A stretch of 64,000 bases of DNA from Bryum argenteum (lineage: Eukaryota; Streptophyta; Bryopsida; Bryales; Bryaceae): assembly GCA_037043015.1 (NCBI GenBank), contig CM073327.1, positions 14,676,727 through 14,740,726 on the forward strand. Direction: 5' to 3'. Of this stretch, positions 11,398 to 31,212 are shown piece by piece. The first letter of the stretch is position 1. Every line of letters begins with the position of its first letter. The position numbers and the translations under genes are program-made. Under the pieces are notes generated by a model. It was given only the letters and a program-made list of their open reading frames with translations. It made no database searches and was not told the origin of the DNA.

Positions 11398-11411
11398 CCG
11401 GGGAGATCACT
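11398..11411 (+). repeat. Left TIR of the 19.8-kb element
   Basis: CCGGGGAGATCACT, exact reverse complement of the right end. The next 250 bp are non-coding and contain a small inverted repeat (GATTTTGGTAATT near 11,462 against TTACCAAATCACC near 11,512). Confidence 0.9.
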
Positions 11412-11699
11412 CCTTGTAATTTAAGGTATAACACGTAATTCGTTATAATGGGAATATATACTGATTTTGGTAATTAGGGAGACTTCCATTTAGATCGATT
11501 CTGACCTGATTAGTTACCAAATCACCAGGTTTTTACTGATAACGATGAATTTTCTCAATATAAAAGACAATACTAGTAAAGATTTCAAAACGCAAGCTAA
11601 GAAATATGCTACCCCAAGAGTAAATTTTATTCATATGAAAGCACAAATACAATTTATTGGTGTAATTGTAGACCTCCAACAGGTAGGCACTAAATTAAT

Positions 11700-12350
11700 C
11701 TACCAATTACGACGTGGCGGAGAAGAGGTATCACCAGAAGTATCATTCTTAGTGAATCGAGGGTCGTCACTACGAGTGTATTTAGAGAAGGCAGGTTCGT
11801 CCATCTCCATAAGCCCACCACTTCTACGACGCTTGGTGCACGTCTCTCCGTAATAGACGGTGAGACTCGATCGAAAATCGTGTTGGATGAACGCGAGTGT
11901 TTGCCCCAAGAGATAAGGAGCAATGAGCCCCAGTATTTGGCAAGGAACTATTTAGCTCGAGACGAGCTAAATAGGCACGGGCGTCGACGACGGGGTTGCG
12001 GGATACAACATCACCTTGGGGTGCCGCTGCAACCGAGGTCATAACACCGATTCGATCATTGCCGTTGCAATAATCGGTTGAATCTCAATAGGGGACTCGT
12101 TGACTACACCATCATCGTCATTATCCATGTCCTCCTTCGTGTAGTCTACAGCCGACGCATCGTCCTGAGCAAAGTAGATAAGCCGTCCCCGCATTCGTTC
12201 TGAGAAAGTTCTGGAGTCGTCACTTGTAATGGAATCCTCTGAAACCGTCGAAGGACCAATTACAAGATTCGCTTGCAAAGCACATGATGCATGTGGAGAG
12301 AGCTGACGTCCAACAGCAGCAACCTGGTTCATAAACACAACCATATTAGC
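11700..12350 (-). CDS. 3' part of the - strand block, unrecognised acidic protein segment
   Basis: An exon starts after an acceptor-like ATGAACCAG at about 12,331 with VAAVGRQLSPHASCALQ. It continues through an acidic stretch (YTKEDMDNDDDGVVNESP) to a stop at 12,039. Beyond a diverged palindrome at 11,949-11,973, another - frame (11,909-11,700) reads YYGETCTKRRRSGG and ends at a stop at 11,700. Whether these belong to one transcript with the exons upstream is unknown. The apparent membrane segment encoded just upstream of 12,331 is better explained as a pyrimidine-rich intron end. No domain recognised. Confidence 0.4.
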
Positions 12351-12525
12351 AAGTGAGTCCAAGACGCTAAGTGCAATGAAAAAGGTACACAAAATAAGAA
12401 CGCATATAATCATGTATGTCGAGGGTGGATTCACCAATCGATCTACATTATATCTGGATCTAAGCAATCGTTAAACATAAGCGTTCCTAGGGTAAAAACC
12501 AGAACAATACCACTGATAAAAGAAT

Positions 12526-13357
12526 TTAAGGCAAATTCTTCCCACTGATTCGGTCCTGATTCCACATATATGGAAGATTACGGCTCAAGAGCATATACAA
12601 CTCTGAGTCCTTCGACAGTTCATTTTGCGTGGGTCTACGATGGCGCATAGTCTCGGCGAAATTTTCAGGACCGTTCAAATGCACGGAAAGACAGATCTCG
12701 CCTATCCTCTTCAAGAAGTCGGACTTTGGATCCTCGGGACAGGAATGGTTCCACGGAACAGTGAAAAGTGTGTTCTTTGTGGGAACCGCAATGCAAGTCT
12801 CGGGCTTCGAATCGACAATGAGCAAGTTGTCGTCATTGAAATTGGCACCCTTCCTAGGATACAACCGCCGTCGAGGATATTTTAAGAGGATGGGATTTGT
12901 CGTGCCGGGGTACTTGGCGAATGCGTAATTCTTCAACAACAGATTATCGCATTGGTTGGAAGCCAAGACAAGTCCAGGGGCAGCGTCTGACTTCGAGAAC
13001 AAAAAGGAACAGAGTCCATGTACAACCTTAGGATCTACGGTACTCCAGACGTGGACGTGGCAGAACAAATTAAGTAAGCGAAGGAACCTGTCAACCCGGG
13101 ACGACGATGAAGAAGCGACCCTCCCCAGCAACTAAGGTTGGGACGGTGGAGGAAAACACCGGAGGATTATTGGGATCCGGAAAAGACAGGCACTCGGCAG
13201 GCTTTGGGGTAGACACAGAGGCCATCGAACATAGAACCCCATCCAGCTCCAACATCACATTCAACCACTTGGGCTTGGACCGTAAAAGACTGCGGGAGAT
13301 ATGCGTAATGGGAAGCTCGGGCGAGATACGCTGTTTGGGATGTTTGGACGGACCTGC
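12526..13357 (-). CDS. FCP1/NIF phosphatase-like domain exon
   Basis: The exon begins at 13,357 after an acceptor (CTCAATGCAG). It shows the order of motifs of FCP1/SCP (NLI-interacting factor) HAD phosphatases: a beta strand with the active-site loop, here NVMLELDGVLCS instead of the usual LDLDGTL; then FFIV-PG; then CHVHVWSTVDPKVV, equivalent to the VWT-x-S motif; and finally NLLIVDSKPETCIAVPTKN, equivalent to the LIIDDSP motif. The usual first Asp nucleophile is Glu, and the second Asp-Asp is VDS, so it may be catalytically inactive. A one-base frame change lies near 13,095-13,100 (the PG-VDRFL join). The frame ends at a stop at 12,526. Family members act on the RNA polymerase II C-terminal repeat; a role here is not known. 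Confidence 0.6.
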
Positions 13358-13414
13358 CTGCATTGAGGGAACACGTAACAATGGCAAATGGTATTAAAAC
13401 AAGAGGGTGTGTAC

Positions 13415-13620
13415 CTTGCAAAATGCTGAAGTATGCAAAGAACTGGCAGCACTGATTGGGTACTGAACCGCCACACCCAGAGGTAACATGAGGTGGTTGG
13501 TGGGGGATTTTGAAGCAATCGGACGGAACAAGGTATTCAGAAGGGGGGCCTGATAGAAAAGGACGAAGTTTAGGGCCTTGTGATGAGAAGGACGCAGACT
13601 CACTGAAGATAAAAACTGAT
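13415..13620 (-). CDS. Exon upstream of the FCP1-like exon
   Basis: The - strand frame ending ...SSLHTSAFCK stops at a donor (CAAG/GTACAC) at 13,415, in phase with the FCP1-like exon (AGPSKHPKQ...) across a 57-bp intron. The intron is unusually short but has both GT and AG. The frame runs back to about 13,603. Another frame over the same DNA is also open, so the choice of frame rests on the splice phase. No domain recognised. Confidence 0.4.
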
Positions 13621-14059
13621 TTGAAAGAAAAGAGTCTCAATATTATTGAATGATGTTTCAATAAGTACAACGATAATAATTGTACTATGTACAAAAAGCG
13701 AAACAGCATCCAATAATTTGGAGACTACTCGTCGACCTACTCGCCGCCATCGGTGTCGGACTCCTGTCAAACAAGGAGCGCCGGCTTTAAGATTACTAAA
13801 TGCAAAAACTTCAAGAGATGAGGGAATAGCAGAGCAAGGAAAGGATAGTAACTAACCTCTGGATTTGCCGGTGAAGTTATAGCCGTCTCAGTAGCAGCCC
13901 CGGGAGAGTCAAGGGAAGGAAGAACATCGGTCGCAGTACACGGGAGAGTCAAGGGCGAAACAACTTCGGTAGCGACCCACGGGAGAGTGGGTCGGCGTCG
14001 CGCCGCCTCAATCGGGACATCACCTCTTTCGCCGGCTTCTCCGAAATCTCGAGGGTATG

Positions 14060-14270
14060 GGGCGGGGTGCGATCTCGGTTCAAAGCAACAATAGGAGGTC
14101 ATGCGGCGCGACGATGGTCAGTTGTGCGGCGCGACGATGGGAGGTTGTGGAGGCGCGACGATGGTCGGGCCGTGCAGCGCGACGATGGGAGGTTGTGGAG
14201 GCGCGACGATGGGCTGGTGGACTCGCGTCGCGAATCTTTGAGGCGAGGTTGATCGGGGTTGATGGAAGCA
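14060..14270 (-). repeat. Coding tandem repeat, proline-rich PPIVAP peptide
   Basis: Direct repeats of a GC-rich unit (core GCGCGACGATGGGAGG, alternating GTTGTGG) occur five to six times. On the - strand one frame gives PPIVAPPQPPIVA-type repeats and another gives HRRASTTSHRRAA-type repeats. The region joins the acidic/coiled frame (15,477-14,317) to the region further 3'. Length and phase could easily vary between copies of the element. Confidence 0.55.
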
Positions 14271-14316
14271 ATGGGGACGGAAAACTAGGCGGTTGGGATA
14301 AGATATTCCCGAATGA

Positions 14317-15803
14317 TCAAACATCTCGCTCCATCTTGCCTAGTGCCATGCGGGTCTCGGATCGAGAGCTCGGGAAAGTGGACTCCAATTTCTCCACTCG
14401 AGCGATGTCTTCTAACCTTTGCCTCTCTCTTGCCGCTTCTCTCTCTGCTTCTTTCTTTGCCTTGCGAGCCTTCTGAACCTCCTTCTCTTGCCGCTTCTGA
14501 GCTCGCTTCTGATCCTTCGTGAGCAAAGGGGCGACAACTTCCACTTTCACTGGTGGTTGTGAAGGCTCTCCTTCCTCCGTGAGCAGAGGCATGACAGGAA
14601 GAAGAGGATCATCCTCAGCCCTCAAAGGCTTTGGAGAACTAGGCTCTTCCGAGAAATCATAGAACCGGACTACTTTGGTATCCTCCGGCTCGTCCTCGTA
14701 CTTCCAAACACCTTTCACTAACCATTTGTCATACTTCCCCTTCTCAATCTGCCTCCTGGGAGGGCTCCGCGGGCGATGGGGAGAAGGGGCCAATGTAGTC
14801 TCCTGCTGGGATGGATCAGGAGCCACCTCGTCGTCTAAGGTCATGGCCGCGAGATCAGCATCATCACCTTGGTCATCGTCATCCCCGTCGCCATCGCCCG
14901 CACCCTCATTATCGTCATGGTCTGACGAGTCAGAGCTGTCGGATGATGATCCATCCCGTGGCACACGCTCTTGCCCAGGTTCTTCATCGTCTTCGCCAAA
15001 GAAATCCCGGTAGATCCCATCGTTCGAGTTCTTTGAACGAACCTCCCTTCGAAACCCCGGGGGTGGAACCGTGTGCTGAACCGGAGTCCCAGCGGCCCCA
15101 ATGTCGACGACCCCAGGAGACTGCTCGATTAGCTCGACTCGAGCTAAATCCTCCTCCGATGGAGGACCACGTCGCAAGCGCCGGAGGGGGGGGCTCTCAA
15201 TGTCCCCAACGACATCGCAGGCCCCAAAGTTGGCTTCGAGCGCCCTCCGTGCTTGAGGCACAGAAGCGCTTCTGGACCGAGAAGCCTCTCCAGCTCGCGC
15301 CTCAGAAGAAGAACGCTTGGTAGATTCGCGGGGAGGGGCGCGTGCGATCACGCCCATGTGATGCGAAGACCGAGCTCGACCGCTTCCACGACCACGAGAG
15401 GGGAGCACGAGCGATACCACGACCACGAGGGGGAGCACGAGCGGCACTAGACGGAATTGCCACCGCAGCCCAGTCAATTGCGGGAGGAGAAACCAGAGGA
15501 ACAGCTGAATCCATGGGGGAATTCATCCCAGCCGGAGAAGAAGGATCACCTTCATCTTCATCCTCGTGCTCAGAAGCGGAAGAGTCGTCGCTTGCAGGCT
15601 GGGTGCTCTTCTTCTTAGACATCCTCTTCTTCCCCTTCTTCGTCCCTTCAACAGAAGGCTTGGGACCGCGATTCGCTTCGGATTGACGTATCTTTGCGAC
15701 GTTGATATCGTTGTAGTCGAGATGTTGGTAATCCGACGCAAAGATTCGTATAAGCCTCCTTCTCAGTCTCGCTAATAACAACATATGTCTCAGCCTGGCA
15801 CAT
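14317..15803 (-). CDS. Large low-complexity acidic and coiled-coil protein segment
   Basis: The exon starts after an acceptor (CTTCTTACAG) at 15,803. Its early part (KPSVEGTKKGKKRMSKKKS, near 15,660) is basic and nuclear-localisation-like. A long open frame (15,477-14,317, 386 codons) follows, with Arg/Ser-rich, Pro-rich and strongly acidic tracts (GDGDGDDDDQGDDAD, near 14,890), then a charged helix (KRAQKRQEKEVQKARKAKKE) predicted to form a coiled coil. Frame changes occur near 15,740 and near 15,350. A copy of the element's palindrome at 15,129-15,149 is read in frame as LARVELIEQ. Function unknown; the composition suggests a nuclear scaffold or chromatin-associated protein. Confidence 0.5.
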
Positions 15804-15849
15804 CTGTAAGAAGGCGAGAGAAACATATAAGAAGAGTAAGAAGAAATAG

Positions 15850-16112
15850 CTCGACTCGAGCTAAAAGGCCATGAACAAATTACATTATGAAGAGATATAA
15901 GCATGGGAGTGTTTAGCTCGGGCGAGCTAAATAGGCATGAGAGTGTTTAGCTCGAGTCGAGCTAAACAGGCATGAGAGTGTTTAGCTCGACTCGAGCTAA
16001 ACAGCCATGAGAGTGTTCGGCTCGACCTGAGCTAAACGAGCATAAGATCGTTTAGCTCGAGTCGAGCTAAACGAGCGTGGGATCGTTTAGCTCGACTCGA
16101 GCTAAACGAGCT
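15850..16112. repeat. Intronic palindrome array (intron 4 of the - strand block)
   Basis: Seven copies of the AGCTCGA-C/G-TCGAGCT palindrome with TTT/AAA arms, spaced about 35 bp. Several have centre G and others centre C; two are degenerate. The array lies in the intron bounded by a donor at 16,151 (AATT/GTAAGTAC) and an acceptor before 15,803. Confidence 0.85.
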
Positions 16113-16151
16113 TGTGGAATTCAAATTAAAAGAAAGGAGCAATGTACTTAC

Positions 16152-17493
16152 AATTCCAAATAACATTGGCTTTGTGCCACCCATAATCGATAGAAACTTC
16201 CCTCCCGGAGATGAGAACATCTTGTGTGACACGACAAGAGAACTCCAATCGGAGCTCGGTATCACCGAGACTAAGGTGGTGTTCTCTGTGCGCGCCGGGC
16301 TTCGAGTCTGAGGGGGCAACTCTGGAGCGTAGAATACAGAGGGAATCGCATCCAACACACTCTGAGCATGGCTGCTTTTCTTGACAAGAAAGAGGAGGGG
16401 GAGCAAGTGCTTCTCTGAAGCTTTTCCCTCTGCGATGCCGTTAAAACGCTCGTTGCTGGCCGGCATGTAGTTGGCAGCCTTGTGAGAGTACCCGTCCTTC
16501 AACTTCTTGTCGACGTAAACCATTGCCTGGCAGTTACGGTCGACGTTGGAGGTGATGAACATCCAAACTTCGGGATTCTTGATGTGAGGATCGGTCACGG
16601 TGTCTGCCCACACATCAAGGAATTCCTGAAAGTATGGACTCTCTGTGTCGTCCACTCTACTTCCGCTCCCCGGGACAGCTCGCAAATCAATCAAGCCTAA
16701 ATCACACTTACTTGATTGGTTCCAGACGTAGTCCTTGTCCCAACTCCCGAATTTAAACTCGGAAGAGTGAAAGAGCCGCGTGTAAACAGTCGGTTCGGAG
16801 GTTGAAACGTCCTTTGACATCCGGGAACTTCTTGAAGAACTCACCAGCATATTCCGATATCTCACCGCACTCCTATTCTTCGTCTGCTTTTTGGCGGTAG
16901 AGGTGAAGAACGAGTCGCCCGGGACCGAGAGAAGCATGGACATAGTCTGACGAGTCAGATTGTATTCCACCTTAAACTTCCTCCAGTTGTCGACGTCGAA
17001 GTGCCACTCGGAGTCGAACAAACCGAGCGAGGGCTTGAGGTTGTGCAGTTCCCTCGCGACAGTGTTCTTCCTCTTCCGATTCTCCACCCACCGCTTTGCA
17101 CTCATGCACTGGAAGTATTTCTTCGCGCTTCCTCACGGCCACCTTGGGGTAGGGCAACGTTCGATCCGAGTCTCGTTCGGCAAGTCTTTGCGCCAACACC
17201 TCGAGGTTCTCCGCGTCCAATCGCCCCATCCCCTTGAAGAACTCCCTGTTCAAGGAGAACTTCTTTGAGGCGGTTTCCCAGTCTTTCGCCCGATTGAATG
17301 GGAGCTCGGTGTCGGGGTCGATCAGCTCTCCGAGACTGTAGCCAGTGATGAACCTCTTCCACAACTCGTAGACGTCGTCGGGAGATGTGATGATGAGGAG
17401 CTCGTTGCGAAGGTCGGACGGTCTGACGATCTTGTCCTTCACGTTATTGTTGTTGATGCTGATGAACCTCTTCACCATAGCGACCGCGAATGC
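16152..17493 (-). CDS. Central unrecognised exon of the - strand block
   Basis: The exon starts at 17,493 after TTTCCTGCAG. It encodes AVAMVKRFISINNNNVKDK and ELWKRFITGYSLGELIDPDTELPFNRAKDW-like sequence (segments seen separately in one frame) to about 17,130. After a frame change near 17,130 it continues as MSAKRWVENRKRKNTV through WHFDVDNWRKFKVEYNL and VWMFITSNVDRNCQAM to a donor at 16,152. Composition and codon use are clearly coding (about 440 codons). I recognise no family. The 16,100-16,152 extension of the long open frame is intron read-through. Confidence 0.6.
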
Positions 17494-17497
17494 CTGC

Positions 17498-17629
17498 AGG
17501 AAAGCCAAACTATTAAGAAACAACCTATGCTGTTTTAGCTCGAGTCGAGCTAAAACGACATCCCAAACACGTCGACAGAAAATGCAACCAAAGCCAACCA
17601 GGAAATGCAAGGATGAGGTAATGTCATAC
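17498..17629 (-). other. Short intron with a single palindrome
   Basis: A GT-AG intron of about 136 bp between the exons ending GAG at 17,630 and starting at 17,493. It contains one perfect palindrome (17,532-17,556; arm GTTTTAGCTCGA, centre G). Confidence 0.7.
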
Positions 17630-18957
17630 CTCATAACGCTTCCGGTTATCTAATTCAACCGGTGTTTCACGTCGATGTGGCTTCTTGAGCTTCTCAGGGC
17701 GGCCATAGTCTTCCCAGACCTTTCTAGCGCCCATGATGTTCGTTGCCCAGGAAGGTATGAACGTCCCAGCATTGTTCGTCTTGTTCGCCATGGCCGACAC
17801 GTCCAAAATCTTGTTGATGTTGGAATGCCACACAACGTGGGCTTTCCATGTCTGAAGGGCGAGGACCTTCGATTCGTCGACCTTCTTGTCCCGAATCAAC
17901 TGTTTCGCAGCCTCAACGTGGTCTTTGCCTGGTCGATAATTCGAACCGACAAGATTGGATCGAACGTCCCAATCCCAAACCTCAAAGCGCAGCGATTGTG
18001 ATCTTCGGCATTATGATGATGGTTTGTCCGGAAGAAACATCAAGAGAATTCATCAAGATGTTCTTGTAATGCGCGATCTTGGCTGGTTCGAGAGATCGCA
18101 CGATGAACCTTGGTTCGGAAGGGTCAAGGAGGTCGATCGACACGTCAAGGGGATTGTCACGACCGAATACATAACACTCTCCACAGCTGTCCCAGTAGTC
18201 CTCCAGAGACTTTGTCGCCTCCTCGTACTTGATGTCCTTCTCGAGAGATGACCCGTTCATGGTAGGGTTCATGAACGTCGAGCGCCGCGGAGGATTTGCT
18301 CCTCTTTGATCCAGAGAGCCGGAAGAATTCGGGTTAGGACGCTTCATACTCGAACGCCTAGACTTCCCTGGAGTGCCTAGACCCGACGGAGCATTCCCGG
18401 ATGGAGCCGGCAACGAGATTCCCGGGCCCTTTCATTGGAGCCTTGCCTTTCTTCTTCGCATTCTCGAAATCGAGAGAGCCTTCCGGATCTGCGCAGTGTA
18501 AGGAATGTAGGATCCGGCGAAGATTTTCGGAGAAGACCGATTGGGCGGCAATTTCGTGTCGATGTGATGAAGTTGATTGGCATCGACCTTCCCGACCATG
18601 AAGCTCCGGATGAAGTCGTGGGAGAAACGGACTTCATTAGGGGAAACACAAATGGTGAAGACGAATCCTTCGACCTCCACCTGCTTGAACTTGATCATGA
18701 GAAATTCATCCTCATAGGTAACAAGTTCGATGAAGGCATCGAGATCTGCGCAAAAACGCCCGTGAGATCCTCGATGTTGATAAAACAAGAAGTGGGTCTT
18801 GTTCAACGGACGAATCGACCAAGACTTGATGGAATGTTTCTTGGGGTCCACAATTTTCCCATTGCGCGTCCGGAAAAATAGCAGAAAGCGGATCGTCTGG
18901 TGATTCGATTTCAACTGGTGCAAGGAATCCCTCCAAGGCTTGCATATTATAAGTGAC
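17630..18957 (-). CDS. Exon 3 of the - strand block, unrecognised protein segment
   Basis: Starts at 18,957 after TTATTCACAG and continues the frame of exon 2 with VTYNMQALEGFLAPVEIESP. One or two frame changes follow between 18,720 and 18,860, the later one beside a CAG. It then reads DLDAFIELVTYEDEFLMIKF and, through further frames (18,413 onward), SSLEKDIKYEEATKSLEDYW, FIVRSLEPAKIAHYKNILMN and WKAHVVWHSNINKILDVSAM, to the donor TATGAG/GTATGA at 17,630. About 440 codons. There is a basic, Ser/Pro-rich patch near 18,300-18,400. No known domain seen. Frame changes may be decay or uncorrected base calls. Confidence 0.55.
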
Positions 18958-19049
18958 CTGTGAATAACAAAATAATAGAGGGCGAATTAGCTCGATTCGA
19001 GCTAAATGGGCACAATAAGGGGGAACATAGATCTGAAGTAGACTATTAC
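18958..19049 (-). other. Short intron 2 with one palindrome
   Basis: A GT-AG intron of 92 bp. It carries one palindrome copy with a mismatched centre (18,986-19,007, centre T). Confidence 0.7.
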
Positions 19050-19156
19050 CTCAGGAGCCGACTCTTGCTGCTCCACTTCCATGTTGATTTCAGACTCGGC
19101 AGGGGCATTTGTAGCCATCTGAACAATTCTGGCAGTTTGTTTGGTTCTCGGCATTA
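19050..19156 (-). CDS. First coding exon, histone H3-tail-like N-terminus
   Basis: Starts two bases after an acceptor (GTGAATGACAG/TA-ATG). ATG is at 19,154-19,152 with a purine at -3. The exon encodes 35 residues beginning MPRTKQTARIVQMATNAP and ending QQESAPE at the donor GAG/GTAATA. Residues 3-9 (RTKQTAR) equal histone H3 residues 2-8. H3 position 1 is Ala, here Pro; H3 Lys9 is Ile here. A weaker match to the H3 QLATKA segment follows (QMATNA). The rest of the protein is not a histone. Either a captured H3 exon remnant or a tail mimic for H3-reading proteins; both are inference. Confidence 0.7.
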
Positions 19157-19269
19157 CTGTCATTCACACAATGAGAAACAAACTGTAAGATTTACAGGGG
19201 CAGTGGCACGTCCTCATCATCTAGGCGATCAATCCAAGATAAACCATCAAACATGTTTAGATTTATTGC

Positions 19270-20590
19270 CAAGATTATTTAGCCCCAGTCGAGCTCAACT
19301 GGATTAACCTGCTACATATCAGGAAGGCCATTTAGCTCGACTCGAGCTAAATGGTCCCGGACCGCAAACAATGTCGGTCCCATTTAGGACGGGTCGAGCA
19401 AAATGGGCTATAAACCTGTACCAGAGCAGTAAGCTCATTTAGCTCGACTCGAGCTAAATGGACATACTACCCTATAGCAGGTTTCCTGCCTATTTAGGCC
19501 AACCCGGGCTAAATGGTCACGAACCTGGAACAAGGTCAGGCCCATTTAGCTCGAGTCGAGCTAAATGGGCGTACTGCTTCCTTGCAGGTCAATCCCGATT
19601 AGCTCGAATCGAGCTAAACGGGCCTCGCCACGTTCCAGATCCGTTACCATTTAGCCTATGTCTAGCCTAAATGGGATTGGACTACGGACAAGAAGTCAGC
19701 CCATTTAGCTCGACTCGAGCTAAATGGGCATGTCCCCATCCAAGGTCCAAGACCATTTAGCTCGAGTCGAGCTAAATGGGCTTGGACTACAGCCAAGTAG
19801 TGGGCCCGTTTAGCTCGACTCGAGCTAAATGGTCCCGGACCTTGTATGGGGTCATGCCCATTTAGCTCGAGTCGAGCTAAATAGGCTGACTACCTTGCCG
19901 TAGTCCAAGCCCATTTAGCTCGACTCGAGCTAAATGGGCACGACCCATACAGGTCGAGACCATTTAGCTCGAGTCGAGCTAAATGGGCTCACTACTGTCA
20001 GTAGTCAAGCCCATTTAGCTCGACTCGAGCTAAATGGTCTCGGACCTGTGTAAGTCGAGGCCCATTTAGCTCGAGTCGAGCTAAATGGGCTCACTACTTG
20101 GTCAGAGTCCATGCCCATTTAGCTCGACTCGAGCTAAATGAGCTCGGACCTTGTATGGGGTCAGGCCCTTTTAGCTCGAGTCGAGCTAAATGGGCTCACT
20201 ACTTGGCTGTAGTCCAAGCCCATTTAGCTCGACTCGAGCTAAATGGTCTCGGACCTCAGATGGGGTCGAGGCCCTTTCACTCGAGTCGAGCTAAATGGGC
20301 TCACTACTTGGTCAGTAGTCAAGCCCATTTAGCTCGACTCGAGCTAAATGGTCTCGGACCTGTGTAGTCGAGGCCCATTTAGCTCGAGTCGAGCTAAATG
20401 GGCTTGGCTGAACGAGTCGAGACCATTTAGCTCGATTCGAGCTAAATGGGCTTCGGTTGGCATGGAGAACTATGGCAAAGAATCGAATTAATTGGGCTAA
20501 AGTGGCATCGAGCTAAATGGGCATCGAGCTAAACGGGCATCGAGCTAAATGGACATCGAGCTAAATGGGCATCGAGCTAAATGAGCTGGA
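19270..20590. repeat. Main intronic palindrome array (first intron of the - strand block)
   Basis: About 19 copies of a 29-bp palindrome (arm CCCATTTAGCTCGA, centre C or G, mirrored arm), spaced about 52 bp from 19,331 to 20,450. Five half-palindrome copies (CATCGAGCTAAATGGGC type, about 17-18 bp period) follow to 20,586. Over 19,700-20,400 the centre base alternates C, G, C, G, and the spacers alternate between two types that are themselves hairpins (ACTAC...GTAGT and GGACC...GGTC), giving a higher-order repeat of about 105 bp. The array lies in the intron between the donor at 20,767 and the acceptor before 19,156. Confidence 0.95.
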
Positions 20591-20767
20591 AGTTCGAATG
20601 AGCGCATTCTAGCAGAAAAACACAAATTTTGAAGCAATGAACACAAATTTGCGTGAAGCCACTACACTTCGAGCAGGATTCGAAAACATTGTGCCCTGCA
20701 ACGTACAAAACAAGCTCCTAAAGCACAATCTCAATGCAAAACCTAAAATTCAGAGGTAAGAACTTAC

Positions 20768-21130: not shown

Positions 21131-21139
21131 GCGAGAGCC

Positions 21140-21300
21140 CGAAATGGGGGGGGGCGGGGACCCTGTCGGCAGGGCGCTCCCGCCTGCGCGGGCTGCCCCG
21201 CCGCCGGTTTGCAGGCTGCCCGGCTGCCCGGGCTGCCCGGGCTGCCCCGCCGCCGATTTGCTGGCTGCCCAGCTGCCCGGGCTGCCCGGGTGGAAATTTC
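21140..21300. repeat. GC-rich island with GCTGCCCGG repeats
   Basis: Very GC-rich block with a run of eight G and repeated GGCTGCCCGGGCTGCCCGG-like units in about two larger direct copies (21,185-21,235 and 21,236-21,290). It sits at the upstream edge of the - strand leader and switches abruptly to AT-rich DNA at 21,300. It could be part of the promoter. Confidence 0.6.
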
Positions 21301-24300
21301 CAAAAAAATTTTTATTTTTTATTTTAAAAAAAAACAGAAGTTCTATTATTTGGGGCGGAGATGTATTTCAAAAAAATAAATGGAATCAAAGGAATTTTTG
21401 TATGTGAAGTAGGTAATAACGACTCTATAAAATTTAGAAATCACCAAAATAATTTCTAAGAAGTCGAAACTAATTTTCCCGATTTAGTTTAGATTACCTC
21501 TATGGACCTGAACTTTGAATAAGATGTAGAAAATATATAGAAGAGAAGAAAAAATATTTTTAAATTTTAGGTTAACTAATTATGACCCTAGAAAATAGAT
21601 GGTGTTATTTAGAAATTTGTGAGAAAGACACATATCTATGCTATGAGTTTCTTACAAAAGTTTTAACACATTGGCACTTTGAATAATAAGGTAAAAAATA
21701 AATAAAATGCAAAGGAAAAAAAAAGTTGTCCTGAGACTAGCTTATAATAACCTTATAAAAATTATAGTACCATAAAATAAATCATAGGAATAAAGTATCT
21801 ACGTGTCATCATTTAAGTGGAACTTTCCAGAATTTGAATAAGCAGGTCAATAAGAAAATGATGGAAAGAAGGTGATTTGAATACGTACAATAGCTTAATA
21901 GGACCATATGAATGTGTTGAAAGTGTGAAATATATCATAAGACAAATGAAACTATGTCTATAAATTTCATGAGGATTCAAGAACCCAGCATAATTTGAAG
22001 TACGAGACGAGTGCTAGTGTATGCGCAAAAAGTGAGGGAGAGTGGTTTTTATAACTTTAAATCATAATTCATGTCATATGATAATTAAAGACAAAATATT
22101 AGGATTTGCCAAGAAAGCAATGGAAGTATATTTTTTTCTTTTTTTTTTTTTTTTTACTTTAAAATTAAATATTTATTTTATTTGTTTTTGGTTAATTTTA
22201 TATGTTTTTGTTTTCACGCATTGAATTAAAATAGTTCATTTCTATTGTTAAAGCTTAAATTAATACGTAAGTAATCAAAATAAAGTGAATAAAGATATTT
22301 TTAAATCCTAGAGTAATTATCCTATAAAATGTTAGTTAAATATGTTTAATTGGTAGGAAAGGAAATTAAAGTTAAGAAACATAGAATAATTCGTGAAATG
22401 TAAATAAATAAAACACCAGATTATATTTGTAGTGATCGAGTTAAAAATATTATATGCTTGGAAAAACTATGTGTAGAAAGAAAATGACGATTGAAGTAAG
22501 TAAAAACATTTAATATAGTGGCAAATAGAGAGTGTAAGATGGTTTTTATAACTTGATTGCTTTACTTGTTTCCCCTGCGCAATTGCTTCCTCTATTGGAT
22601 CAATATGTTTGTGTCAAAGTAGCGCAACCAATTCTGACTGCGAGAAGGAAATAACTGAAGAATGCACCACTACTGTGATGTGAGCAGCGCCGTCATTCTT
22701 AAATGTCTTCTCGCAAACAAGCTTCTTATAGGGTCAATCTCATTTTAACGGAATGAGTCTCATTTTGATTGAAATTCTGATATACATAGTCGATATCCTA
22801 TACGTAAGTATTCTTTATTAAGTAAAGATAAAAGTGTTTAATTTCCCAATTGCATTCTAAAAGTAACTTCCTAAAAGTAACTAATTATGAAAGATTTCCA
22901 AATCAGCTTCCTTATAAATCATGAAGGTATAATGTTCAGTGTTGGAAAATAACTTTTTATTTGTTCTTGCATAGGCAAATCTTAGTTTCTTAAGATAGTA
23001 AGATACAAGATCACAAAAAAGATATTTTTGGTTCTAAATAATTAATTTTCATTAGTAAAACGTTAAATGATTTGACCTACATTAAGTACATTTGTAGGCA
23101 ATAAGCATACTGTTAGCACGGAATAAAATAAAGTATATACGCAGAATTAAAATTGCATTTAATTTATGTATGACGAATGCCCATGATTATTAATCTACAT
23201 ATCCTCGTTTAGTAGGGAAATATCCTATTGGAAGAAAACATTATTAATATTCACATTCAACTATTAGCACTGATAGACATTTTATATTATTAAAAATTTA
23301 AAAATACAGTAGATTAGTCTATTGATATAATAACTTTTATTTAAATATTAATTAATGTAGTAATATAGTGTATAATAGCATATTCAATAATACTGATATA
23401 CCTTATTATAATAAGAAATATATTTTCATATAGTACAATATGGTTGAACAAAACATATTAGTATATTAAACAGAAATTAATCTCAACTCCTTAATCTTTA
23501 ATCAAAAATTATTACTTAAGTAAAGAATATTTAAATAAAAAAGGTATGACGATTTCACATAAATATTGTGCTAGGGTAAACATGGCACATGTAAACAAAT
23601 AACGAAATTTTAAATTTAATGCAGAACCAACACATTTGATTCTCATAGCTTAATATACAAATCTCCTAAAAATGAATGTGCCATTTGCAACCATTTTACA
23701 ATAGCAATTATCAGATTGATTCAATGAGCGCGAGGATTAGCTAAAGTAGCATGAGCGAGGAGTAGCAGCAGAAAACAACGGCGGAATAGCGAAAAGACAT
23801 GTGCCCGGGGAAAGTGGGAGTGCGCCACGAGATTGAATGCGTTGCGAGAGTTCTCTATTAGAGTATAAAATTTAGGCTAACGATTTTAGGAATTAAGGTT
23901 TTGGTTATTGAGTTAAAGGTTTAGGTTTAAAGGTTGATCATTTTTGAACTTATAGAGTGAGGATTGAAAAGTAAACATAGAAGTTACTTATCAGCTTATA
24001 AAAAAAAGCGTAAATGCGGATACATTATAAAATTTTGAAAATAACTTTAGAATAGTGTAATATATAAAACATCCTAGCATAAGAATTGAAGTAAAATGTA
24101 ATATTATTATGTTTGAATATCACACATAGAATACTAAACTTCCAAAAAACATATAGTCGACACTCAATTTTAACAACACCGAATTTTAAATCAATAATAT
24201 AATACTTTAAATATAGTATACTTTAAGTATTATACTTTAAGTAATATACTTAAAATATCTTATTGGAAATAACATAGTTTAAGAAATACGTAATAAACTT

Positions 24301-25250
24301 ATGATTTCTCAACTTATTCACTTTGTCTAAATACTTATATGATATTATATCACATAAATATCTTGAATATTATGTTTATAATGGCCATTTGTAGAATATC
24401 ACATTCAACTTAATTGAATATCATACGTGATACACCACACCTAATTGACTAGAAACTAATCTTATAGAATCACATTTAAATAATTTGAATATAATATTTA
24501 CTATAACTGTTTCAACGTGTAAAGTATTTATCTTTTAATATTACATGTAATTTAGTAAATACAAATCTTACAGTTATACTTCACAACACCTATCGATTTT
24601 AATCAATTAAGCATAAACGCTAGGCTTAAAGACTATAAAGTTGTAAAGAATCACCTTGAGATCATGATTATGAAAAAGCGAATCATGAAAAACTCTTTTT
24701 AATTTCACGTAATTGGCTTGCAATCATAATACATGCTCCATGCTTGGAGTTCCAATAAAATAAAAGAGTTGTTTTCACTTAAGTGCATTTCATTATTTCA
24801 TACTTTTTGCAAAGTTTAGAATAGAAACTAGACTTGATTTGGAGCAAAACCTAAGTGATATCATTCAAAACGGACCTCGGACGAAGAAGATATGGCTATT
24901 CAAAGTTATGCTTTCTATTCAAAATGTCGTTTTTTGACATTCGGCGCATTAAGAGTTTAACATTCTAGTGCCCGATATGAGATTATTTTGTTCATTTGAG
25001 TTTGGGTTATCCATTGTCCTCCCGAATCCGGTTTTTATTATTACAATTATGTAATTTCTATTTTTAGAAGTATTACAAATTTCTCCGCGACTTAACTTCA
25101 AATGATTTTACTGGCCTAAGATGTCCTCGTTCCTCCCAAATTTCCGAAGATGTCCTCGTTCCTTGCGAAGTTCCCCGTTCCTTGTGAAGTTCCCCGTTTC
25201 CCCCCAAGTTCCCATCCACGTCGCTTTTACTCTATACCGTTACTGGCCGT
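21301..25250. other. AT-rich central spacer between divergent gene blocks
   Basis: About 4 kb with no plausible coding frame. It contains a poly-T tract (22,130-22,157) and short self-complementary ACTTTAAGTA-type runs near 24,200-24,250. A partial family-X relic (about 24,625-24,965) ends GACATTCGGCGCATTAAGAGTTTAAC. It presumably separates two outward-facing promoters. Confidence 0.6.
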
Positions 25251-25277
25251 ATTTGGCGCCCTTTCTATTTTGAGTTC

Positions 25278-25711
25278 GTGATCTTGTTTGGCGCCATTTC
25301 TCTTCCCGCTTGCTCTAGCTCTCTCCTCATTGGCGCACTATGCGCTTTCGGCTCCTCTCTTGCTCCGCTCCTGTGCTCTTTCCGCTCCTTTGCTCTTTCC
25401 GCTCCTTCGCTCCTGCCGCGCTCCTGTGCTCTTTCCGCTCCTCTCCGGCTCCGCTCCTGTGCTCTTTCCGCTCCTCTCCGGCGCCGCTCCTGTTGCCCTT
25501 CGCCTCACCTCCGCACCTTCGCATCTTTGCACTTCGTCTCTGTACACTACGTTTAGCCTAAACTACCTATTACCATCAGTGCTTCCGGTTTTGCAAATCT
25601 GGTTTAGGGTTTAAGACTCTCAGAAGCTCTGGAGTTGATGCGCGTGGTGCTTTTGAGGATGCCCAAGGCCTTCGTTGAAATACCGCAGCTGTCAAGCACG
25701 GCGTGAGGGTA
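25278..25711 (+). promoter_or_regulatory. 5' untranslated exon of the + gene, pyrimidine-rich
   Basis: Contains imperfect tandem copies of a unit like GCTCCTGTGCTCTTTCC followed by GCTCCTCTCCGG (25,340-25,500). The exon continues to a donor GAGG/GTAAGTTCGG near 25,710. Next comes a 1.29-kb first intron holding the palindrome array. Open frames in all registers are by-products of the CT repeat. Transcription start unknown. Confidence 0.5.
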
Positions 25712-25974
25712 AGTTCGGTCTATATCCTCAATGTCAATGTATAAGAAGAGATTGTTGTTAATTGGTCATATCTTGCGTTCATCGTGGTGCATTCCTGATA
25801 ACAATGTGGATATCGTCGGTTTAGTTGTGCACGGAAATCGAGGCAAAGATACTGTTTTACTTCTGCACAGTTCCCAAGAACGATTTATAGTATTTGCTGT
25901 GCACGAATATCGAGGCAGTCTCATATAACATATGCATGATATGCTCCTGAAGTCCTGTAATGAAGGACTCACTC

Positions 25975-26910
25975 GAAGACCATTTAGCTCGAGTCGAGCT
26001 AAATGGGCTTGATCTGCTACAGGGCAGTCCGCCCATTTAGCTCGAGTCGAGCTAAATGGGCTTGCACTGAGTTAAAACTGTACGCCCATTTAGCTCGACT
26101 CGAGCTAAATGGGCGTCAAACTGATCGATGCAAGCCCATTTAGCTCGACTCGAGCTAAATGGGCTTGCATTGATTCAGAGCTGTACGCCCATTTAGCTCG
26201 AGTCGAGCTAAATGGGCGTCTTCGTCTCAGATGTCGATTCAAGCCCATTTAGCTCGACTCGAGCTAAATGGGCTTGCATTGTATCAGAGCAGTTCAAGCC
26301 CATTTAGCTCGAGTCGAGCTAAATGGGCGTACGCTTTAACTTCGATAAAGCCCCCATTTAGCTCGACTCGAGCTAAATGGGCTTAACCTTCATCGGAGTG
26401 GTATGCCCATTTAGCTCGACTCGAGCTAAATGGTCATCCGGTTTTAACTGCGTCGTGGTGAGCGTTGAACAGTTATCTTGAAGACCATTTAGCTCGAGTC
26501 GAGCTAAATAGTCATTTAGATAACTGTTCATCACGCTTACCGCGAAGCTGTTGATCCTGGATGACTATTTAGCTCGACTCGAGCTAAATGGTCTTTCCTT
26601 CGACATGCTTCGGGGTAAACAAAATGTATTTAGATCTTCAAGAACATTTAGCTCGAGCCATGCTAAATTGTCATCCTGGTTTGACTGCTTCGCGGTGAAT
26701 GGTAAACAATTATCTCGAAGACCATTTAGCTCGAGTCGAGCTAAATGTTCATTCGTAAAAACGCTTCATCACGCTTACCTCGGCGTTAGCAGCGTGATGA
26801 CCATTTAGCTCGAATCGAGCTAAATGGTCGACGATATATACACTTGCATCGTGACTGAGTGGTGACTTCTGATCTTGAAGTCCATTCAGCTCGAGTCAAG
26901 TTTAATGGTC
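25975..26910. repeat. Intronic palindrome array (first intron of the + gene)
   Basis: Fifteen palindrome copies with the same CCCATTTAGCTCGA arm. The first nine, to about 26,430, are nearly perfect and spaced 51-56 bp. The later six are spaced 75-85 bp and some are degenerate (26,640; 26,882). In the right half the spacers are inverted copies of each other, so the symmetry extends well beyond 29 bp (see 26,450-26,560). The array ends about 95 bp before the acceptor at 27,003. Confidence 0.95.
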
Positions 26911-27008
26911 ATATATTCTTAATGGTAATAAGCATTTCTGACTGCACATAGATTTAGCTACCAGTGGTTTCTCATGATTGTTTATTTATTGCTGGCATTC
27001 AGGTTATC

Positions 27009-29953
27009 ATGGAATTGAGTGAGTCCGATGGCGAGGATGATTTGCGGTGTTTTTTTTCGGAGGTACTGGACTTACTTATTTTGCATAATACATCATTGTT
27101 CTGAGTTTATCCATTCGTACTAATTCGTCTATGTTTGTGGTCTTGTAGGACTTGGATGGTCCTTCTGAGCTTGTTCTTCCGGACCATTTAAAAGATTGCC
27201 CCGGACTACCCAGAAGTAAATGGGTTACGAAATTTGTGACACTTCTCAACGATGGTGGCGACGTTGTGGGTGAAGGCATTTGTCAGACTCTGGACGCTGA
27301 AAGAATGCTTGAGAGTAATGACGAGCCCTTATGTGAAGATCAAGTAGTTGTGCAGATCGTGAAGTGTTTGAATTTCGAGTTCATACCTGCTGAGACCATT
27401 TATGGAACTAGGAACTGGAAGCTCAGTCATGCTATGCATGAGGGTTGGTCACTACTTGATCATTTACGAGTTGATCAGTTTAACGTCGCTGTTTATGCCC
27501 GCGATCATCCAAAGAAGAAGGGGGTGCGACCGTATGATTTGGGAGAACGGAACCAACGGGTTGTGAGGACCAAGAGGGAGGAGGAACTCTTGACGTTAGA
27601 TTCAGTCAACTTAGTTGCAAGCAAGATTTGTTTGCGGCAAAGAATCATTGCCAACCTTTCCCCTCGTGAGAAAATTATGGCTCTCCAAAGCGGATGTACG
27701 AGGCGTCGGGTTTTAAATTTAAATCACATTTCAAGATCGATGTTCATAATCGTTTTCATCAGGCACCGGACGGCAAGATGATGGTGACCACTGAAGGCAT
27801 TGATGTTTGCGCGCGTGCATGGCAACATATTAGTGGAGTTCCGATTTCCACATTTTACAGGCGGAAGGCAGAAGCTGCAGCTGGACTACGTGCTCGGCAC
27901 CATGGGAATGTTGGTCAGAAGAAACCTCGATTGCACGTGAAGCAAGCTGTTGCTACTCTCAAGACATTCATTGACAATGTCTTCACGATCATATGCCCCA
28001 CCGGTCGAAGATGTTGACATCTGGTGAGAAGGTTGTCTCGCGGTCCTTGCCATCGTCCTTTAGATGGAAGGATGCCATACCAGGGATCAATGACATCAAT
28101 GAGAGGTTGGGCTTGAAGTCTATTTCTCAGAGCACACCGAAAGCGGGATTAGGAGGTCAAAATTTTCTGAGTATTCAAAGAAAGCGCCTGGGGACAACTT
28201 TGCTCGTTGCTCAACTTGTGACAGGATGGAGACAATGATCAAGTCTATGGTACCTGATTCATGTGAAGAGAATATGTGGATCAAGAAGCTAGAGGAGCAT
28301 TTGCATCATCAAGAAACGATCGTGAGTATTATTATTCAAATCGTTCTCTTTCTATTCATTGTAGAGAGATGTCCTCTATAATACATGACAAAATGGATCA
28401 TGCGAAGACCGCACATCTGTATTTTCACATAAAACGAAGGCAAATGATGCATTAATGAAGCTTCCAATTGCTGTAACTGGCATGATTGCTCACGGGCATA
28501 GCGATGTCCGATATGCTCATTATGGGCTCGATATTTATCCAAGTGATTGCAATCACACTGTTGGATCAATATTAAAGCTTTTACGAGATCTAGAAGGTGT
28601 TCCGATCTCATATTCGAAGTCATTATTCGCAAATTCGGGGTCGCTGCCTTTATTTGAAGCTGTACTGTTCGGAAAAGAAGTGTGTTTAAACTCTCTTCTA
28701 CCTGAAAGTGAAGTTTGTGGGGTGGCGGAGCCTCTACCTCCTGTCCTGCATGTGCAACTCGACAACGCAGACTTGATAACAAGAATAGATTTATGTTTTG
28801 CTTTTGGTCTCTTCTGGTACACATGGGTGTGTTCCGTGAAGTATACGTTAATTTCTTGTTAGTTGGACATACCCACGAAGACATTGACGCCCTCTTTGGA
28901 CGTTGGAGCATGACTCTCAAAGAGAACGACTTTCTCACACTTCCTCAGTTGATGAAGTCATTTATGGACGCGGAGGCTTTGCCCGTTATTCCTCATTTGA
29001 TAGAGGAAATACCTGACTTCAAGGGTTATATCAAAGACTACATTGGTTCCAGAGATGAAATTTTAGTTGGGCATTCGGAGGGTCGTGATTCAAGTTTTAC
29101 AAGCATGACAATGGATGGCCCATGATGCGAAGATAAGATGTTATGCACGGACAAGGAGTGGTTACCTTCTACTGATGGAGGTATAAAATTGTGGAAAGAG
29201 GACCGAAGTACGGGGAAACCAATGTTACCTACAGGTGACATGAAACCTTTGGCGCCCATTCCTATGAAGAACCGTGATGACATTGTAAAAGGCATTGGAG
29301 GGTTTATTAAGATGTGGGAGACTTCAAGTGCGGAGGACATATCGGGAGAATTTGGTCGGCGTCATGAATTTGTTATTCGCTATTGGCGAGTATGAAAGTC
29401 GGCGTTGGTTGAGCCTATAGAAGTGTCCTCATTTTTGAAGAACGGTTGTTGGCCTTTAACTCGAGTACCTGCGACACGAGAATTCTTAAATACTGGCGAA
29501 CTGCGAGAAGAATATGGGCGTGATCCGCACTTTATCGGACGGTTGTGTGATAGACCAAGGGAGTCCTTTCGGGTTGGTCGAGATGTTTTTGCTGGATACT
29601 TTGTAGCTCTACGGCCAGCTGATGGGGATACTCGTCCTTTCTGGATTGCTAGGGCCCTGACTGATTTCGATGTTGATCACAACTATCCAGGCTGTATTCA
29701 AATGCAATATTTTCAACCTGCATCGAGAAATAGTGTTGTTCAGGAAACCTATGCTGGTTGGGATACGAAGAAGACATTCAAATGGAAAGTTGAAGACACT
29801 CACATTCCGGAATGGCTTCATGCTGATGCAATTTTTACGTCATGGAAATCAAGTGCAAAACTTGGCTCTCGGCGTCCTATTATTTCATTATCGGAGCGTC
29901 AAATCGACATCATCAAACAAAGTATTGAGCGGTTCGACGGTGGAGAGGAGTAG
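27009..29953 (+). CDS. DUF7869-type protein, candidate transposase of the 19.8-kb element
   Basis: Exon 2 has ATG at 27,009 (MELSESDGEDDLRC), six bases after the acceptor GCATTCAG, and a donor at 27,063. Exon 3 runs 27,149-28,321 (DLDGPSELVLPDHLKD...). Exon 4 runs 28,365-29,953 and ends DGGEE stop. Recognisable parts are VCARAWQHISGVP and HHGNVGQKKPR (about 27,806-27,930), a CSTC motif (about 28,215), and then the DUF7869 core: LDN near 28,757, NKNRFMFCFW and FLLVGHTHEDIDALFG (28,780-28,900). The C-terminal RPFWIARAL motif is near 29,635. The spacing of acidic residues (LDN...HTHED) fits a possible RNase-H-like fold, which is inference. Frame changes near 27,690, 27,980, 28,150, 28,765 and 29,100, and TGA at 28,386 and 29,393, break it as written. 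The 28,765 break coincides with a scrambled CTGCAG-like site. Confidence 0.75.
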
Positions 29954-29978
29954 CCTGACATCCCTCTATTTGGGCATG

Positions 29979-30005
29979 CCCATTTAGCTCTAGTCGAGCT
30001 AAATG
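29979..30005. repeat. Palindrome copy in the 3' flank of the + gene
   Basis: One copy of the element's palindrome, with one mismatch (AGCTCTAGTCGAGCT), 26 bp after the stop codon. Confidence 0.8.
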
Positions 30006-30276
30006 ACCTCAGTGCAATTTGAGCTGTCAATTTATCGTGTGACTTTTTGTCAATACATTCATCTTTGAAATGGTCGTTCTAGAAGTCCTACCATTCGTAG
30101 TTAAGTATTGGTACGGTTTTTATGCCTTAAAGTTAACAATGGAAGTGTTTGTACATTTCCGGACTTGGTTGTCGATTCCCAGTTTAATTGACTTTATCGT
30201 TTTATTGTGCTCTTTTAGCAAATTGCTGTCAGGCTGCATTTTCTCTTGCTATTATCATCATCTTTTGTATTCAGTT

Positions 30277-30350
30277 TAGCTCTACTACATGCGCGTTTAG
30301 CTCTACATCACGCGCGGTTTGCTCTAAAACATGCACGTTTAGCTCGATAT
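30277..30350. repeat. Degenerate half-palindrome direct repeats
   Basis: Four tandem copies of a TTTAGCTCTACA-like half-palindrome alternating with ATGCGCG/ACGCGC motifs. They appear to be eroded array units near the right end of the element. Confidence 0.6.
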
Positions 30351-30799
30351 ATATGTTGGAATTTAGGTCGATTGGTTTTTGAGAGTTTGGATATTCCCAT
30401 TATAACGAATTACGTGTTGTATACACCTAAGTTAAGAGGGTATTTCATGTGGGGCTATTTACATTTGTTTTTGTGTTTTAGATGACCGTATATTCACATA
30501 AAAAGCTACTCGGGGCGTATTCTTGGTACCGTATGGTGTTTAATAAATTCATACATGTGTTGAATTACTTGAGGCTATATTACATACGAACAGTATGGGT
30601 GCATTTTTTCCAGCCTTGTACAAAAAATTTGCTCTCAAGGCCAAAGATTTTGTCTTACTTTGATTGTTGCAACATACCAAAACTTAAACATAGCACAAAA
30701 GGTCATATTCGTTAAATCGACACAAAATAAGGTTCTTGGGACTTAAAATGCTACTTAGTGCATATAACGCTTTGTTGTATTTTGCCTTCACTCCTCTGT

Positions 30800-30827
30800 G
30801 TGTCCAAAGGACACGCAAACATACTAG
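30800..30827 (+). mobile_element. Helitron-like 3' end, first copy
   Basis: Perfect hairpin GTGTCC-AAA-GGACAC (30,800-30,814), then nine bases, then CTAG followed by T. A hairpin shortly before CTRR is the hallmark of Helitron 3' termini. No matching 5' end was assigned, and it could instead be a subterminal motif of the large element. Confidence 0.45.
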
Positions 30828-30954
30828 TAACAGAATAAAAGGAGTTGAGAGGACAAGGGATATATGTGAATTTTATACCTACTTTATGATTTATAGCATA
30901 TATAATTATTCTTAAGTCACATTGATAAATACTATCTTTTATGTTTTTCTCCAT

Positions 30955-30982
30955 GTGTCCAAAGGACACGGGGACATACTAA
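30955..30982 (+). mobile_element. Helitron-like 3' end, second copy
   Basis: The same 15-bp hairpin followed after nine bases by CTAA, then T. The sequence directly after it, TCCTACTATAAAAA, resembles a Helitron 5' start. It lies 155 bp after the first copy. Confidence 0.45.
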
Positions 30983-31198
30983 TCCTACTATAAAAAAAAA
31001 TCAAGCCTCCTATTTGTGAAGGCTAACTTATAAATAAAATGTCATACTACACATTGTTTTTATATAGCCTAATTTATATATAATAGAGTATGTAGCATTA
31101 TATGGACCCTATAGTAGTCCTACACATTATATAAAAATTCTCCCCTTTGAATTAAATAGACCCTATATTTTAACTCACGTATATTTCTAAAAAACGAT

Positions 31199-31212
31199 AG
31201 TGATCTCCCCGG
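31199..31212 (-). repeat. Right TIR of the 19.8-kb element
   Basis: AGTGATCTCCCCGG, exact reverse complement of the left end. The 31,000-31,198 stretch inside it is AT-rich and non-coding. Confidence 0.9.

Follow-up and report, generated by a model that had tools for sequence, protein, structure and literature searches.

A giant, apparently Sola-like transposon nested within a smaller element of the moss Bryum argenteum, with an accessory protein that may imitate the histone H3 tail to act on chromatin

The window considered here is a stretch of 64,000 nucleotides of the moss Bryum argenteum (NCBI GenBank assembly GCA_037043015.1, contig CM073327.1, positions 14,676,727 to 14,740,726 of the forward strand), in which a degenerate copia element is interrupted by two transposons with terminal inverted repeats (TIRs), one lying within the other. 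The outer element measures 824 bp. The inner one, of 18,989 bp, carries two divergent gene blocks: on the right a gene for a DUF7869 protein, very probably its transposase, and on the left a gene for an accessory protein whose first coding exon opens like the tail of histone H3, with dense arrays of a short palindrome upstream of both (Table 1). Taken as a whole, the inner element is read with moderate confidence as a giant transposon, probably related to Sola, with an accessory protein that would act on chromatin by imitating the H3 tail.

The first-pass annotation of this locus had described a single 19.8-kb TIR transposon of unrecognised family captured inside a copia element. Insertion into copia, with outer ends exact to the base, is borne out by the ends, the duplication, the restored frame and the Pfam matches. 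The inverted ends lie where they had been placed (CCGGGGAGATCACT from position 11398, its reverse complement ending at 31212, and GAGCTACCGC flanking both sides), and comparison with other copies extends them from the perfect 14 bp claimed to 15 bp (CCCGGGGAGATCACT, 11397-11411 and 31199-31213). The exact target site duplication (TSD), for which 8, 9 or 10 bp had been considered, is settled by the same comparison at 8 bp (AGCTACCG). Joining of the flanks with one TSD restores an open copia frame (...NGTWKLVELPQGRHTIKNKWVYKLKF...), as the reconstruction of the empty site had proposed. Among five neighbouring open reading frames (ORFs) scanned against Pfam, RVT_2 (3.2e-11) and gag_pre-integrs (2.7e-7) scored above the cut-off, rve (5.6e-4) and, alongside gag_pre-integrs, Pol_BBD (8.4e-4) fell below it, and two of the five gave no match.

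What does not survive is the unity of the 19.8-kb element, since a second TIR pair and a 4-bp duplication, GTAT, on both sides of the inner ends resolve it into two nested transposons. Searches of the window's own genome separate the two. With the left 303 bases as query (299 first-look candidates, 40 scored), homology to other loci begins sharply at about 11426-11430 and not at 11398; in nearly all other rows the high-copy repeat starts some 29-33 bases inside the claimed end. Unrelated sequence precedes this start in the aligned copies, and none of seven other inner copies (L002-L008) shows the outer left end within the extracted 1.5 kb. A search with the right 513 bp yielded 60 matches, among them the window copy (40 of 133 candidates scored); copies sharing the outer ends, for which a search had been suggested, thus do exist. 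Twelve outer loci were extracted (L009-L020, L009 being the window copy), and the 11 others all carry both ends, 817-892 bp apart, and run uninterrupted through the inner insertion site (either TTTAAGGTATACACC itself or a version differing from it by one or two bases), with a single 4-base word and no inner element. Their 8-bp TSD is perfect in nine, L010 matching at 7 of 8 bases and L020 at 2 of 8; L010 and L015, having nearly identical flanks, may represent a single insertion that was later copied. In favour of one undivided transposon with 14-bp ends stand the exact ends and duplication at 11397/31213; set against the second TIR pair, the second TSD, the missing outer left end in L002-L008 and the empty site in 11 of 11 outer copies, which refutes it, that reading retains a negligible probability. 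Nesting of the inner transposon inside the outer element inside copia is practically certain. The degenerate copia was first invaded by the 824-bp non-coding TIR element, with its 8-bp TSD, and the 18,989-bp transposon, with its 4-bp TSD, later inserted 33 bp into that element.

No gene was seen in the outer element in the sequence read, and no partner transposon mobilising it was found; both divergent gene blocks, formerly ascribed to an element with CCGGGGAGATCACT ends, lie in the inner element only. Members of the hAT superfamily generate 8-bp TSDs and have TIRs starting (C/T)A(A/G)NG. The outer element shares the duplication length (perfect in the 9 of 11 copies) and lacks the end motif, its TIR starting CCCGG. 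Compared with MULE elements, whose TSDs usually measure 9-10 bp, its duplication is 8 bp long, and a gene-less element, as read, offers no transposase for comparison. The verdict of an unrecognised family therefore still suits the outer element and no longer the inner one, which has a DUF7869 gene and is probably Sola-like.

Table 1. Features of the nested transposons in the window
Feature	Position in window	Strand	Length	Remarks
Outer TSD, left, AGCTACCG	11389..11396		8 bp	Other copies compared
Outer element, left part	11397..11429	+		Opens with the 15-bp TIR CCCGGGGAGATCACT; final GTAT is the inner TSD
Inner transposon	11430..30418	+	18,989 bp	
Inner TIR, left, AACACGTAATTCGTTATAATGGGAATAT	11430..11457	+	28 bp	
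Left gene block (accessory protein)	12526..19154	-		Several exons; frames broken in window copy
Palindrome array, 4 copies	15946..16106	+		35-bp register; inside left gene block
First coding exon, left gene	19050..19154	-		MPRTKQTARIVQMATNAPAESEINMEVEQQESAPE, then GT; H3 tail-like start
Palindrome array, 19 copies	19331..20446	+		Upstream of left gene; mean spacing 51.6 bp over 19704-20426
Palindrome array, 13 copies	25983..26824	+		Upstream of right gene; mean spacing 53.4 bp over 25983-26410
Right gene	27009..29953	+		Short first exon, large exon from 27149; DUF7869; broken in window copy
Open piece of DUF7869 domain	28389..28862	+		Pfam 2e-8, 34.5 bits
Inner TIR, right	30391..30418	-	28 bp	Perfect inverted copy of AACACGTAATTCGTTATAATGGGAATAT
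Outer element, right part	30419..31213	+		Opens with second GTAT, closes with 15-bp TIR
Outer TSD, right, AGCTACCG	31214..31221		8 bp	Other copies compared

The inner TIR pattern (at most one mismatch) matched 340 + 328 places, that is 668 ends, a count that includes the sister family B described below; the reversed-pattern control gave 0 + 0. From 20 other left ends that were fetched, one without the left TIR and one without a right-end locus were set aside, and the 18 copies readable at both ends all show a perfect 4-bp TSD, with 18 different words. The window and five other right parts are 96-98% identical in pairs. In the copies of family A, that of the window, which were read (L061-L067 and the window), small indels that differ from copy to copy break the same genes, which may reflect either decay or assembly errors.

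The right gene, whose start codon was read by eye and whose large exon runs to the stop at its end, is a clear member of DUF7869 (PF25273), a Pfam name that conveys no function and that here sits inside TIR elements with TSDs. In copy L062 an unbroken frame of 374 aa matches at 142.4 bits (1.7e-41), and the window piece also exceeds the curated cut-off of 26 bits. In the scanned window and relative ORFs, the copia ORFs aside, DUF7869 is the sole Pfam family above the cut-off and none of hAT, MULE, CACTA, PIF or Tc1 was seen, which agrees with what the first-pass annotation had judged by eye; matches to Geminivirus AL2, RIC3 and PFF1_TM on window ORFs fell below it and were ignored. Frames of 717-776 aa are listed in other family-A copies, and the genome yielded 151 DUF7869 matches from 150 scored of 1811 first-look candidates. 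That the inner element is one of a highly abundant set of transposons with DUF7869 genes is strongly suggested. These proteins are extremely numerous and many of the frames, in several families (L068-L097), reach about 1000 aa; related elements may therefore have been active recently.

A catalytic role is suggested by several observations. Thirty sequences (P0001, derived from L062, and 29 of 30 family loci, L071 giving no frame under the motif filter) align around three acidic positions within the conserved motifs IIxDxMD, (A/L)DNxxx(E/D)NKN and GHTHEDID; in the alignment of 15 chosen sequences (A1), the second and third positions do not vary and the first hardly does. An AlphaFold model places strands at 86-93, 103-107, 114-127 and 136-139, a helix at 146-159, a strand at 211-217, a helix at 224-237, a strand at 243-249 and a helix at 256-271, with D92 in the first strand, D217 ending strand 211-217 and E256, D257 and D259 opening the last helix; this predicted order, in a weak model, is RNase H-like with the acidic residues at the expected places. 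In the top 20 of a Foldseek search against PDB, 19 chains (several per protein) are what we take to be RNase H-fold nucleases and transposases, namely Argonaute, Mos1, P element, Metnase, Tn5, Mu and Hermes. Furthermore, two other DUF7869 families end in ...GTGTT, i.e. have AACAC ends, as here. Since the acidic pattern, the modelled fold and the AACAC ends shared with other DUF7869 families coincide, DUF7869 is likely to be the transposase: it would act as an RNase H-fold D-D-(E/D) enzyme that cleaves at the AACAC... ends and leaves a stagger of 4 bp on insertion, and there is high confidence that the inner element was moved by such a protein.

Several results weigh against this assignment. 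The right parts of the window and of five other copies are all broken by small indels, L074 has Tyr at the second Asp position, and the third DUF7869 family pair (L068/L070) ends in ...CAGGTG. The model, built from 15 sequences, has a mean pLDDT of 50.9, and all top Foldseek chains have E-values above 0.03, none reaching 0.001, with TM-scores below 0.4. None of the 14 control genomes contained DUF7869. Changes at the three codon positions of the transposase exon among six recent family-A copies number 44/63/69, a third-position excess that is weak as a sign of recent selection on the transposase among these copies. A PDB sequence search with A1 gave two matches (E 0.1 and 0.91) that are not meaningful; in bacterial and archaeal contigs, a search for DUF7869 relatives gave 24 pattern places, none of them confirmed. 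The literature search found no paper naming DUF7869 and none with the motif GHTHEDID/VGHTHED.

Regarding the superfamily, CACTA elements have CACTA/CACTG ends and 3-bp TSDs, and the inner element, with AACACG ends and a TSD of 4 bp, is not one of them. One source describes Sola elements with 4-bp TSDs and an acidic-triad (DDD) transposase, reports them in Physcomitrella patens and gives their size as mostly 2-9 kb, with some above 15 kb (PMC10741241). Sola1 is tabulated in Physcomitrella (PMC9033089), Sola is listed among the superfamilies (PMC9587614; PMC10294476), and the main text of a report on transcribed Physcomitrium transposons, which include two Mariner elements, makes no mention of Sola (PMC7466625). 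The inner element resembles Sola in its 4-bp duplications (GTAT in the window, and a perfect duplication in each of the 18 other copies read at both ends) and in its large size, and its D...D...E/D pattern, with RNase H-like topology in the low-confidence model, may correspond to the acidic triad. Because TSD, size and predicted fold fit, membership of Sola is slightly favoured. Against it stand the basis of the comparison, which was made by description, and the third catalytic residue, which may be E or D where Sola has DDD. The histone-tail-like accessory protein and the palindrome arrays are unmentioned in the Sola descriptions as far as these were available, and among work on giant moss transposons and Sola no description of this element was found.

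The left gene runs on the minus strand, and open frames extending to about 11.7 kb may be part of it. Its exon at 12526-13131 gave 639 first-look candidates in the genome and 150 scored matches, 31 of which (own count), at 57-62% identity, constitute the sister family B. For family B one left end was read; it agrees with the family-A TIR over 32 bases (96.9%), with no longer match in 261 bases. A NIF phosphatase identity for the left protein was rejected (E 0.048 on one exon, gone on a longer piece).

Histone H3 packages DNA, and cells mark its tail to turn DNA on or off; this tail reads ARTKQTARKS. In the left gene the first coding exon opens with MPRTKQTARIV, that is, an H3 tail with Ile in place of Lys9, and the DNA pattern of this start occurs once in the window and in none of 100 shuffles. 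Across the genome the pattern was found at 66 + 71 places (reversed control 0), a second class, ATGGCTCGNACNAARCARACNGCTAC, being seen among them; other places read ATGGCNCGTACNAARCARACNGCNCG and are presumably host H3 genes. Family B starts MARTKQTATIV (two starts read, MARTKQTATIVPAF... and MARTKQTATIVPAP...), and a check of one copy placed a stop four codons upstream of its ATG. A shared putative N-terminus (M)[PA]RTKQTA-x-I thus emerges in two families, its start being clear in one B copy and predicted in A.

Conservation of this tail is evident in both families. Nineteen A copies were read (16 of 40 places, all from rank 18 downward, together with L066, L067 and the window), and MPRTKQTARI is kept in 16 of them; L098, L102 and L108 each have one residue changed. 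Informative sites, shared by at least two variants, number 0 of 36 tail bases and 14 of the 69 other exon bases (Fisher p 0.002), and any variation affects 6 of 36 and 28 of 69, respectively (p 0.016), the p values serving as a guide only, as the copies are related. A DNA search with the B exon, tail included in the query, gave 84 candidates, of which 40 were scored; 22 of the scored places lie on C1 below 26.147 Mb, the range in which the tail-pattern list is complete; MARTKQTA is kept in 20 of these 22. Four ATGGCTCGNACNAARCARACNGCTAC places lie 6.3-6.4 kb from family-B exons (C1: 45759, 5974111, 21610490 and 25164029). Between A and B, codons 3-8 show five synonymous and no amino-acid changes, and the likeness falls right after IV. 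The 21 listed B tails differ at synonymous third positions only, a restriction that the search pattern itself enforces.

Selection on the tail for its protein sequence is accordingly considered probable, in an estimate lowered because the start of the sister family was itself found with the tail pattern. For the same reason the P value of about 8e-4 for the A-B pattern under random changes is weakened, the B class having been found with a tail-requiring pattern, and further points also count against the H3-like reading of the accessory protein. The three left parts read have broken frames. The zero-mismatch tail list holds 31 of the 40 A places from the DNA search, and 9 are missing. Among the B accessory exons that could be checked in the listed range, a listed tail lies at the expected distance in 4 of 12 and is absent in 8. 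At residue 8 family B has Thr, where H3 has Arg. Finally, no Pfam domain scored above the cut-off in the accessory protein, and MPRTK is preceded in family A, at a distance of three codons, by another in-frame ATG, so that a free H3-like N-terminus there depends on a predicted splice acceptor.

These observations also bear on the view that the N-terminus is a functionless relic of a captured H3 gene start, or a chance likeness. Capture is plausible, given that the family-B codons (ATGGCTCGNACCAAGCAGAC...) resemble the presumed host H3 genes, many accessory-exon copies are diverged or contain stops, and 9 of 40 A and 2 of 22 B places fall outside the kept-tail list. Nevertheless, a mere relic is rated unlikely: tail amino acids remained unchanged between A and B across the five synonymous changes as the remainder of the exon diverged, the tail persists in 20 of the 22 B exons that the DNA search recovered with a query that included it, and in A the tail is the least variable stretch of the exon.

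Two side observations concern these sequences. A separate repeat, L116, of which one copy was read, contains ...VLARTKQTARIRGRRPDLVQKVFEK..., an H3-tail word followed by Ile (ARTKQTARI), and as far as that copy was read lacks an ATG at the tail; repeats of this type (at most two mismatches) lie at C1:6585533-6585564 and at 16 further places, 17 in total. Moreover, C1 (44.09 Mb, 17% of the genome) holds 113 of the 150 listed accessory-exon matches (own count), the more diverged rows being mostly there, a skew of the kind that a non-recombining chromosome, for example a sex chromosome, would show.

If translated as read, the minus-strand gene would yield an accessory protein with a free N-terminus, (A/P)RTKQTA-x-I, that imitates H3 with Lys9 changed to Ile. 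Such a tail would interact with readers or modifiers of the H3 tail, most probably shielding the element from silencing, and the case for and against its acting as a chromatin mimic is evenly balanced. Two more specific modes of action are conceivable by analogy. The SNAG motif MPRSFLV occupies LSD1, and in a similar manner the tail might block H3K4 demethylation or attract H3K4 readers. Residues A/P-R-T-K-Q-T-A are retained in both families and position 8 is variable, and Met-Pro and Met-Ala starts normally lose Met, which would free residue 1 as in H3; conversely, the in-frame upstream ATG of family A could add three residues. A decoy or bait for the H3K4 machinery, which fits the kept residues 1-7, is possible, though less likely than not. 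Alternatively, K-to-M/I histone mutants trap methyltransferases, and a tail with Ile for Lys9 might likewise capture the H3K9 methyltransferases that silence transposons. The Ile at this position in A and B, and in the one piece read of the L116 repeat, is in keeping with such a trap. Arg8, which is important for H3K9 enzymes, is replaced by Thr in family B, and the best-kept residues, 1-7, surround Lys4 rather than Lys9; a literature search on K9M with K27I, which found nothing, was also counted against it, and an H3K9 trap is therefore quite improbable.

Histone mimics include the SNAG motifs of SNAIL and GFI1 and, from viruses, influenza NS1. Mimicry is also described for host regulators, G9a/GLP and ATF7IP carrying short copies of the H3 tail around K9, in the available portion of one source (PMC9768651), to which the available portion of another adds only a cited G9a paper (PMC10135481). 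The stretch in the inner element resembles all of these in being a short copy of the H3 tail. It differs from G9a/GLP and ATF7IP, which are host proteins and copy the K9 region, in forming the predicted N-terminus of a transposon protein, in keeping residues 1-7 (with Pro or Ala first) and in having Ile at position 9. No pairing of a transposon protein with an H3 mimic was found in the literature as far as it was available.

The palindrome arrays offer a possible link between this tail and the element's own promoters. The 21-bp palindrome TTTAGCTCGANTCGAGCTAAA (at most two mismatches) occurs 42 times in the window, always in the inner element, and never in 100 shuffles; 19 copies precede the left gene, 13 precede the right gene and 10 are found elsewhere. 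Both mean spacings correspond to about five helical turns, and each of the two large arrays is placed between the low-GC middle of the element and the beginning of its gene, a position expected for the binding of a regulator. The arrays before both genes would dock an element-encoded DNA-binding protein, and binding there would bring the accessory tail to the promoters of the element; that an element protein binds them is a proposition that stands about as much chance of being right as wrong. VANDAL transposons with their VANC anti-silencing proteins, and En/Spm with TnpA, likewise combine an accessory protein with dense motif arrays in non-coding DNA and are linked to escape from silencing. 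The inner element shares the accessory protein and the dense short-motif arrays, and differs in transposase, TSD and motif, the binder of its arrays being putative; we know of no H3-like tail in VANDAL/VANC or En/Spm. Near the inner right end, nearly half of the palindrome recurs within a tandem repeat with a 21-bp unit (GTTTAGCTCTACAACATGCGC, 30274-30345), and the arrays may thus reach the subterminal region.

Further repeats were noted in the window. Within the central AT-rich part of the inner element, a repeat of about 330 bp (24632-24963) that also occurs at 2272-2604 (80%), with further copies near 44.4, 45.4, 55.2 and 56.1 kb, is probably another small transposon inserted there. Positions 38171-63998 form a direct repeat with a period of about 10.77 kb and 97.5% identity (38171-53234 against 48941-63998). 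As the repeat includes a minus-strand ORF (47037-47321) that by eye resembles the tetratricopeptide (TPR) repeats of a PEX5-type gene, it is probably a tandemly duplicated gene segment. Rfam at its gathering thresholds gave no match in the window.

Transposons survive by evading host silencing, and to our knowledge few element-encoded anti-silencing factors have been described in plants. The association of DUF7869 with a mobile element that has defined ends and 4-bp duplications implies that proteins of other genomes that carry no annotation but DUF7869 could prove to be transposases. The fullest form of the present interpretation, that a DNA transposon encodes its own mimic of the H3 N-terminus, selected across families and displayed at the arrays as a decoy that blocks or redirects the silencing machinery, is put forward tentatively, as somewhat less probable than its failure in one part or another. 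A transposon protein starting with an H3 tail would nevertheless be a directly testable decoy for the H3K4 or H3K9 machinery and, if the interpretation is true, such a tail would account in part for the spread of a 19-kb transposon and its sister family to hundreds of ends in this genome.

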